A stretch of 41,987 nucleotides of DNA, taken from Candidatus Microbacterium stercoravium (GTDB lineage: Bacteria; Actinomycetota; Actinomycetes; Actinomycetales; Microbacteriaceae). A model generated the notes under the pieces. It searched no databases, was not told the origin of the DNA, and saw nothing but the letters and a program-made list of their open reading frames with translations. Numbering within the stretch: position 1 is the first letter of the stretch; every line of letters starts with the position of its first letter. Below, piece after piece: positions 21,792 through 23,777 of the stretch. The DNA lies in NCBI GenBank assembly GCA_019117025.1, contig DXAM01000082.1:1-41987 (forward strand). The letters are read 5' to 3'. The translations under genes and the position numbers were made by a program.

Positions 21792-22205
21792 TCAGTTGAC
21801 CGGTCCGGTGAACTTCTCGCCGGGGCCCTGTCCGATCGCATCGGGGATGGGCGAGATCTCGCGGAAGCGCAGTTGCAGCGAGCGGAGTCCGTCACGGATC
21901 GGGCGCGCGTGCATGTCGCTGATCTCCGGCGCCGCGGCCGTGACGAGGCCGGCGAGCGCGTTGATCAGCTTGCGCGCTTCGTCGAGGTCGGTCCACTCGT
22001 CGGCCTGGCCCTCTTCGCCGAGGCCGAGCTTGACGGCGGCCGCGCTCATGAGGTGAACGCAGCTCGACGCGATCACCTCGACGGCGCTGACGTCAGCGAT
22101 GTCGCGCGCGGCGTCGGTGGCCGCCGCGGCCTGTGCGCTCTCCTCCCACTTCGCCAGGCGTTCGGGGTCGAAGGAGAAGGCGTGATCGCCGGTGGTGGTG
22201 CTCAT
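21792..22205 (-). CDS. DUF1844 domain-containing protein
   Basis: SAVEVIASSCVHLMSAAAVKLGL and DLDEARKLINALAGLVTAA; divergent from infC, a familiar actinobacterial arrangement. Confidence 0.85.
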   Translation of the reverse strand: MSTTTGDHAFSFDPERLAKWEESAQAAAATDAARDIADVSAVEVIASSCVHLMSAAAVKLGLGEEGQADEWTDLDEARKLINALAGLVTAAAPEISDMHARPIRDGLRSLQLRFREISPIPDAIGQGPGEKFTGPVN

Positions 22206-22230
22206 GAATGTCTTTCTGTTAGACTGCTTC

Positions 22231-22476
22231 GGGCTCCGGAAGTGATTCCGGACGAAAGAGGATCTTCATCCCACCCGCGCTTGCCGTTCAAGGCTACCGG
22301 GTCACGTAACACTCCGCTCGCCGAACGGCGAGTTGGGGCGAGCGAATCGCTCGCCCTCGGGTGGTGCGCGCGCGAACCTGCGTCTCGCACGGGTGGATGG
22401 TGATGATTTCTCCCGCCCGTGGCGCGATCTTCGCGCGGCGGTGGCTCATCGACTATCGCACCATTAGGAGTACCGC
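22231..22476 (+). promoter_or_regulatory. Structured infC leader with several perfect hairpins and alternative pairings
   Basis: TCCGGAA-GTGA-TTCCGGA (22235-22252); CTCGCCG-AA-CGGCGAG (22317-22332); GGGCGAGCG-AAT-CGCTCGCCC (22336-22356); CCACCCG (22271-22277) with CGGGTGG (22358-22364 or 22390-22396); GCGCGA-TCT-TCGCGC (22422-22436). Confidence 0.65.
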
Positions 22477-23082
22477 ATCAGCGATCCCCGTATTAACGAG
22501 CGCATTCGCGTGCCTGAAGTCCGACTCATCGGCCCGGGCGGCGAACAGATCGGCGTCGTCCGCAGTGAGGTGGCGCTTCGTCTCGCACAGGAAGCAGATC
22601 TCGACCTCGTCGAGGTGGCTCCTGATTCGCGTCCCCCCGTGGCCAAGATCATGGACTACGGAAAGTTCAAGTACGAGGCCGCTCAGAAGGCTAAGGAAGC
22701 ACGTCGCAACCAGGCCAACACGGTGCTCAAGGAAGTCCGCTTCCGGCTGAAGATCGATCAGCACGACTACGACACGAAGCGCAAGCGTGCGGAGGGCTTC
22801 CTCCAGGCGGGCGACAAGGTCAAGGCCATGATCCTGTTCCGCGGCCGTGAGCAGCAGCGCCCCGAGATGGGCGTGCGTCTGCTGATGAAGTTCGCCGAGG
22901 AGGTCGCTGAGCTCGGCACTGTCGAGTCGCGTCCGAAGATCGACGGCCGCAACATGGTCATGATCATCGCTCCGGTGAAGAACAAGTCCGAGGCCAAGGC
23001 CGAGCAGAACGCCAAGCGCGCCGTCAACAAGCAGGCCGCGCGCGAGGCGAAGCACACGCCGAGGCACTCCGACAGCGAGTAG
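22477..23082 (+). CDS. infC: Translation initiation factor IF-3, apparent ATC start codon
   Basis: Conserved [27 protein letters not shown] begins upstream of the first GTG (22510); in-frame TAG at 22465-22467; AGGAG at 22466-22470 lies 6 nt before ATC (22477). Confidence 0.88.
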
Positions 23083-23160: not shown

Positions 23161-23355
23161 ATGCCGAAGCAGAAGACCCACTCGGGCGCCAAGAAGCGCT
23201 TCAAGATCACCGGCACCGGCAAGCTCAAGAAGCAGCAGGCAGGTATGCGCCACAACCTTGAGCACAAGTCGAGCCGCCGGACCCGTCGTCTGAACCAGGA
23301 CCAGATCGTGTCCGGCAACGACGTGAAGGCCATCAAGAAGCTCCTCGGCCGCTGA
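23161..23355 (+). CDS. rpmI: 50S ribosomal protein L35
   Basis: [37 protein letters not shown]. Confidence 0.98.
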
Positions 23356-23393: not shown

Positions 23394-23777
23394 ATGGCAA
23401 GAGTAAAGCGCGCAGTCAACGCGCATAAGAAGCGTCGCGTCATCCTCGAGCGTGCCTCGGGCTACCGTGGTCAGCGTTCGCGCCTGTACCGCAAGGCGAA
23501 GGAGCAGGTCACCCACTCCCTCGTCTACGCGTACCGCGACCGCCGCAAGCGCAAGGGCGACTTCCGTCGTCTGTGGATCCAGCGCATCAACGCGGGCGCC
23601 CGTGCGAACGGCCTCACGTACAACCGCTTCATCCAGGGCCTGAACCTGGCCGGCGTCGAGGTCGACCGCCGCATGCTCTCCGAGCTCGCGACGAACGAGC
23701 CCGCCACGTTCGCCAAGCTCGTCGAGGTCGCGAAGGGCGCGCTGCCCTCCGACGTCAACGCGCCGAAGGCCGCGTAA
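23394..23777 (+). CDS. rplT: 50S ribosomal protein L20
   Basis: [38 protein letters not shown]. Confidence 0.98.

Follow-up and report, generated by a model that had tools for sequence, protein, structure and literature searches.

The DNA analyzed here, hereafter the window, is a 41,987-nucleotide stretch of contig DXAM01000082.1 from Candidatus Microbacterium stercoravium. It contains a 246-nt region (22231-22476, plus strand) between a divergent gene and infC, and the question raised by this locus is whether the region forms a regulatory leader and what such a leader would respond to. The genes infC, rpmI, and rplT lie directly downstream in operon order, so the leader precedes the operon that encodes ribosomal protein L20. 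We consider it likely that the leader is an autoregulatory RNA switch of the L20-leader type, built on its own scaffold ahead of infC-rpmI-rplT, with L20 binding predicted from sequence comparison. The locus is organized as follows:

21792-22205, minus strand: divergent gene, named DUF1844 in the initial annotation of this DNA.
22219-22225, plus strand: -10-like box TTAGACT, kept as TCTGYTAGACT in almost all aligned Microbacterium leaders.
22231-22476, plus strand: infC leader RNA (5' UTR), from the promoter-like box to the AUC start, supported also by its fold and the covariation of helices P4-P6 given below.
22466-22470, plus strand: Shine-Dalgarno sequence AGGAG of infC, kept in relatives.
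22477-23082, plus strand: infC (IF3), with start codon AUC.
23161-23355, plus strand: rpmI (L35), an ORF identified from its sequence and operon order.
23394-23777, plus strand: rplT (L20), the proposed ligand, identified in the same way.

Judging from the -10-like box, transcription would be expected to start near 22231-22233. We placed the start of infC at AUC 22477, and not at the GTG at 22510 given by ORF finders, because the conserved N-terminal residues need the AUC, an in-frame TAG stands shortly before it, and AUC or AUU occupies this position in 105 of 105 aligned loci. The same holds for 87 of 88 more distant loci, and an AUC or AUU start of infC appears near universal in Actinomycetes. 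ORF callers restricted to ATG, GTG, and TTG shorten IF3 by 11 residues here. In E. coli, infC starts with AUU, and this codon gives rise to IF3 feedback. The AUC of the window belongs to the set of non-canonical start codons (AUU, AUC, or AUA) that marks this type of IF3 autoregulation. By analogy, it likely adds a separate IF3 feedback on infC, of which the codon itself is what we observe in this locus. One contig labelled Stenotrophomonas maltophilia P13 also holds a Microbacterium infC locus, probably as a result of assembly contamination.

The structure of the leader is beyond chance, because region 22231-22500 folds at -128.3 kcal/mol versus -108.7 ± 5.1 kcal/mol for dinucleotide shuffles (z -3.8), and 0 of 200 shuffles were as low. 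Helices P4-P6 covary in 36 Microbacterium leaders. Outside the conserved core described below, the leader carries the following elements:

22235-22252, plus strand: 5' hairpin UCCGGAA/UUCCGGA, conserved, with stem letters changed in relatives.
22310-22363, plus strand: helix CACUC (22310-22314)/GGGUG (22359-22363), which bears the variable arms and pairs in 31-36 of 36 Microbacterium sequences per column.
22317-22332, plus strand: variable arm CTCGCCG (22317)-AA-CGGCGAG (22326), the first hairpin of the initial annotation, present but not conserved.
22336-22356, plus strand: variable arm GGGCGAGCG (22336)-AAT-CGCTCGCCC (22348), its second hairpin, likewise present but not conserved.
22390-22419, plus strand: helix P5, CGGGUGG (22390-22396)/CCGCCCG (22413-22419), paired in 28-36 of 36 sequences per column, mostly GC with U-G, U-A, and C-G exchanges.
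22420-22438, plus strand: hairpin P6, which includes the hairpin at 22422-22436 and has a covarying stem (CG/UA/UG and GC/AU/GU/CG/UA pairs).

The initial annotation had described this region as a set of competing hairpins. All of the repeats and helices it listed are where it placed them, including the hairpin GCGCG-ATCTT-CGCGC at 22422-22436 and the CCACCCG at 22271 with CGGGTGG partners at both 22358 and 22390. In the minimum-energy fold of the window, CCACCCG is sequestered by 22358-22364 and the core is not formed; the same pairing dominates the predicted ensemble, and most Microbacterium leaders have a GGGUG that could pair with CACCC. The idea that the GGCGAG-core hairpins (22317-22356) compete as a switch fared less well. 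These hairpins occupy a hypervariable part that is not common even to the genus, where they form arms on the CACUC/GGGUG helix.

Conservation is concentrated upstream of these arms, in an element of which the initial annotation had touched the CCACCCG part and missed the rest:

22255-22302, plus strand: conserved core AAAGAGGAU-CUUC-AUCCCACCCG...CGGGU, proposed to mimic the 23S H40/H41 junction and to bind L20.
22260-22271, plus strand: core helix GGAU/AUCC (GGAG/CUCC in most relatives), whose last pair in the alignment changes from GC to UA on both sides in 3 sequences and is no standard pair in 10.
22273-22302, plus strand: core helix ACCCG (22273-22277)/CGGGU (22298-22302), with A-U, C-G, and C-G invariant in 34 of 34 sequences and the next pair C-G or U-G.

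The core is 48 nt long and has the Micrococcales consensus (C/A/G)AAG-N-GGA(G/U)-loop-(C/A)UCCCACC(C/U)G ... CGGGU, in which AAG, GGA, UCCCACC, and CGGGU are unchanged across 34 non-redundant Micrococcales sequences. Its helices are nearly invariant, so classical covariation is weak and the pairs are too conserved for proof by covariation. A regular expression for the first half of the core matched 179 of 192 infC leaders, with 0.00 matches expected from dinucleotide shuffles. We also trained a covariance model, R1, on the core of Micrococcales alone. In the window, R1 matched 22255-22304 (51.8 bits, E 2.3e-10), which was its single match in the genome. Elsewhere it matched 73 of 81 infC loci in a set drawn from additional Actinomycetes lineages, with a few relatives from Micrococcales included, and 1 of 18 infC loci of other actinobacterial classes; because of this distribution, the core looks like a trait of class Actinomycetes that extends little beyond it. 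A phylum-wide genome scan with R1 gave 14 of 298, a figure limited by a prefilter that left 18 candidates scored per genome, and was superseded by infC-anchored retrieval. In one Actinomycetes family (f101, L199-L202), neither pattern nor model found the core upstream of infC, reflecting loss or divergence.

Core-like elements may also occur upstream of infC in two genomes outside Actinomycetes, one at 381-452 of its locus (L268; R1 E 0.003) and the other by the loose pattern only (L269). In other families (L169, L178, L048, L057), the GACCG at the 5' end of the leader can pair with a conserved GGUC after the core, a closing helix that is drawn in Rfam family RF02830 and seemingly missing in Microbacteriaceae. 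Two further pairings of the core were considered and rejected. A long-range pairing of its 3' strand GGCUACCG (22292-22299) with CGGUGGCC (22439-22446), proposed by RNAalifold for Microbacterium, was negative in a native-versus-swapped test across families. Pairing of the core loop with the Shine-Dalgarno/start region in the Microbacterium consensus involved columns that are all invariant for other reasons, with no covariation.

The core resembles the site at which L20 contacts 23S rRNA. The pattern AAG-N, a helix of at least 5 bp, and CACC within 300 nt is found once in 23S rRNA from a Microbacterium relative, CCCUAAGC(GCGUGCU ... AGCACGC)CACCGAAG, whereas shuffled 23S sequences are expected to hold 0.33 such matches anywhere for stems of at least 5 bp and 0.05 for stems of at least 7. 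The flanks are equivalent to positions 1008-1012 and 1149-1156 of E. coli 23S rRNA, which established 23S secondary structure places at the junction of helices 40 and 41. This junction is where the C-terminal domain of L20 binds (PMC6962249), and known L20 leaders have in common an AA dimer together with two successive G-C pairs (PMC7247131). The leader has counterparts of both, AAG and ACC/GGU, and both are invariant. The scaffold is permuted, as the GGU/GGC strand lies 5' of AAG in 23S rRNA while GGU lies 3' of ACC in the leader. In other orders, the rRNA has CGCC in place of the CACC of Microbacterium and E. coli, making the match less exact, and a mimicry motif this short could be convergent. 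From this likeness we infer that the core mimics the rRNA junction and that L20 is most likely its ligand. The source draft genome contains no 23S rRNA match, as is usual for metagenome-assembled genomes.

Alternative pairing of the core was examined in 82 leaders, all less than 72% similar to one another, by comparing the complementarity of 12-nt windows around the core to their own downstream regions and to those of other species. A leader's own downstream region was the better complement only at offsets -4 to +13, which overlap AAGNGGAG, with a mean z of about -0.6 (SE 0.11, n = 82, about 6 SE); the remaining offsets were within two standard errors of zero. The effect at the best offset was similar outside (-0.60, SE 0.12) and inside (-0.56, SE 0.19) Microbacteriaceae. 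The partner segment of AAGNGGAG is upstream of the start codon, at a median distance of 79 nt. Hairpins followed by a U-tract were present in 47 of 78 non-Microbacteriaceae leaders, compared with 14 by shuffle, and in 39 of these 47 the partner overlaps the 5' arm of the terminator (12.1 expected for random leader segments). Examples include GCCCGCAAGUGGAGGCUCC with UGGAGCCCCGCCUGCG... before CGGGGCAUUUUU in a leader of Streptomyces type and GUUUCAAGCGGAGCUGAG with UUCAGCCUCCGUUUGAAAG in Rothia. Because the partner sits on the terminator 5' arm in such a large share of these leaders, the AAGNGGAG strand is their predicted antiterminator. The arrangement is that of an attenuator: folding of the binding site and pairing of the antiterminator would be mutually exclusive.

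Microbacteriaceae mostly have no U-tract (11 of 41 have one, 4.7 expected). Their partner segment is instead complementary to the Shine-Dalgarno sequence of infC (z -0.86, SE 0.16), compared with -0.14 (SE 0.11) elsewhere, as exemplified by GAAAGAGGAGUUCC with the UACUCCUCUUUC segment in one relative (L106). In several species of the family, the Shine-Dalgarno context repeats the core strand (CGAAAGAGGA). These patterns suggest that output was probably switched to translation control in Microbacteriaceae. The corresponding place in the window is:

22402-22413, plus strand: GAUGAUUUCUCC, the place of the pyrimidine-rich partner segment (putative antiterminator or anti-Shine-Dalgarno segment in relatives), strong in L013, L019, and L106 and weak in the window (z -0.3 for Shine-Dalgarno against site).

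Both the antiterminator and Shine-Dalgarno pairings of the window are weaker than in relatives, and its best antiterminator duplex (-12.1 kcal/mol) is at a different place. The sensing core is intact. The window has no canonical U-tract terminator, and for this reason its output is more likely translational or dependent on a non-canonical terminator. The initial annotation had called the leader an attenuator-like actinobacterial counterpart of the L20 leader. At the level of the family this is well supported by the conserved core, the likeness to the L20 site, the overlap of antiterminator and terminator, and the known terminated leader of Streptomyces; for the window itself, the lack of a canonical terminator counts against it.

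Taken together, these observations make the following mechanism likely. The hairpin GGA(G/U)/(C/A)UCC, flanked by AAG-N on its 5' side and CACC on its 3' side, with ACC paired to the downstream GGU, would bind L20 by virtue of the mimicry. Alternatively, the 5' strand of the core (AAGNGGAG and its neighbors) would find its partner in a segment some 60-80 nt ahead of infC. In most Actinomycetes this segment would be the 5' arm of an intrinsic terminator, such that folding of the core with L20 bound would allow the terminator to form and transcription to stop, and opening of the core would lead to antitermination. Statistics show the complementarity in this scheme, and the ligand-favored state and direction of control are those that we presume. 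In Microbacteriaceae, with the U-tract mostly lost and the segment complementary to the Shine-Dalgarno sequence, the output would probably be translational. Actinomycetes would thus probably adjust the amounts of L20, L35, and IF3 through the leader. We give about even chances to the fullest version of this proposal: an L20 leader common to the class Actinomycetes, which binds L20 through a circularly permuted copy of the 23S H40/H41 junction, whose aptamer strand acts as antiterminator in most orders and as Shine-Dalgarno competitor (a Shine-Dalgarno-like decoy) in Microbacteriaceae, and whose terminated product is Scr1601.

An attenuator could also operate independently of L20, with the choice set by IF3, NusA/NusG, RNA polymerase speed, or another ribosomal protein and the rRNA likeness incidental. 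The mimicry motif is short (7-8 letters), and infC is the first gene and has an AUC start that already implies IF3 feedback, both of which fit such a reading. However, the flank pattern falls exactly on the L20 site of 23S rRNA, the invariant letters AAG and ACC/GGU are those expected of an L20 contact (PMC7247131), and the operon encodes L20, which makes this explanation unlikely. We find it improbable that the regulatory choice in the source species is the one initially annotated, made by competition between the GGCGAG-core hairpins and by CCACCCG having two partners (22358 or 22390). The two hairpins are not conserved, and the partners at 22358 and 22390 correspond to strands of the conserved helices P3 and P5, where they pair elsewhere, even though the pairings exist, the one with 22358-22364 prevails in the window's predicted ensemble, and its equivalent is available to most Microbacterium leaders.

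The element might instead be the gene of a trans-acting small RNA of the Scr1601 type that lies upstream of infC by chance, given that RF02830 is filed as an sRNA and that scr1601 is among the S. coelicolor non-coding RNAs with confirmed expression (PMC8388888). However, the element always shares the strand of infC and precedes the gene by 115-304 nt, its conserved antiterminator specifically opposes the terminator, and Microbacteriaceae keep the core without a terminator. Moreover, transcriptomics in S. ambofaciens placed scr1601 in a UTR (PMC8388888), and we judge this possibility very improbable. Finally, high GC content readily gives stable folds, but plain intergenic structure with no regulatory role is hardly credible, being contradicted by comparative data in the form of class-wide conservation and site-specific complementarity, in addition to the fold z-score. 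The preferred reading remains a leader of the L20 type.

How does this leader relate to systems already described? The initial annotation had proposed an Rfam search as a check and considered the element possibly undescribed. The window matches neither RF00558 (L20_leader), even at E ≤ 10, nor RF02830 (Scr1601; threshold 100 bits or more), and the other Actinomycetes leaders scanned gave no RF02830 match outside Streptomyces. RF00558 had no covariance-model match of at least 58.7 bits in 20 genomes including the window's own, while controls (B. subtilis and others) matched. Streptomyces infC leaders score 102-184 bits with RF02830, whose 3' end falls in the terminator U-tract, 85-90 nt short of infC. 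The window leader is homologous to Scr1601 by position and core, albeit outside the RF02830 model. Novelty is reduced in two respects: the Streptomyces version is in Rfam as an sRNA, and a 2011 study likened the M. tuberculosis infC 5' UTR to the L20 system of B. subtilis (PMC3207917). That study reports a 326-nt 5' UTR with a UTR/CDS ratio of 2.6-4.9, a long leader more abundant than the coding part, and its passages on this UTR describe no motif, structure model, or antiterminator for it. In the available portions of the literature on Corynebacterium, Mycobacterium, and Streptomyces transcripts, we did not find the element described as a leader, although it may be among the 30 ribosomal-leader candidates of PMC11109978. 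Hence, parts have been seen before, whereas the class-wide element, the L20-site mimicry, and the antiterminator were not found described in those portions.

Scr1601 is an orthologous RNA with the same core, covering the infC leader of Streptomyces between the 5' end and the U-tract of the terminator. It differs in being filed as a Streptomyces-only sRNA with an Rfam type that gives no cis-regulatory role. RF02830 appears to be the terminated Streptomyces infC leader (L169, L170, L178, L184, L185) and could be re-filed as cis-regulatory. The B. subtilis L20 leader shares the operon, the position upstream of infC, L20-site mimicry, and the choice between antiterminator and terminator, with L20 favoring the terminator (PMC6097659, PMC10931766). 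In contrast, the leader here uses an AAG-N hairpin CACC scaffold with GGU placed 3', and Microbacteriaceae seemingly use Shine-Dalgarno pairing. The E. coli rpmI-rplT translational operator, a pseudoknot and hairpin bound by L20, has in common the ligand (here proposed), rRNA mimicry, and operon feedback (PMC10931766), but it lies inside the operon and leaves infC uncontrolled, whereas the element here is upstream of infC. The Deltaproteobacteria L20 leader likewise combines two G-C pairs and an AA dimer with a helix between (PMC7247131), in another phylum and with another gene downstream, a likeness drawn from the general description of that leader. The best reading is a variant of the L20-type autoregulatory leader that we did not find described before, with L20 binding predicted. 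If correct, an annotated sRNA would gain a function, the abundant M. tuberculosis infC leader would gain a testable model, and a single protein-binding RNA would seemingly have exchanged transcription termination for translation control as its output within one class. It would also fill a gap, since L20 feedback has been known from Gammaproteobacteria and Firmicutes and suggested for Deltaproteobacteria, whereas none was known from Actinomycetes such as Streptomyces, Mycobacterium, Arthrobacter, and Microbacterium.
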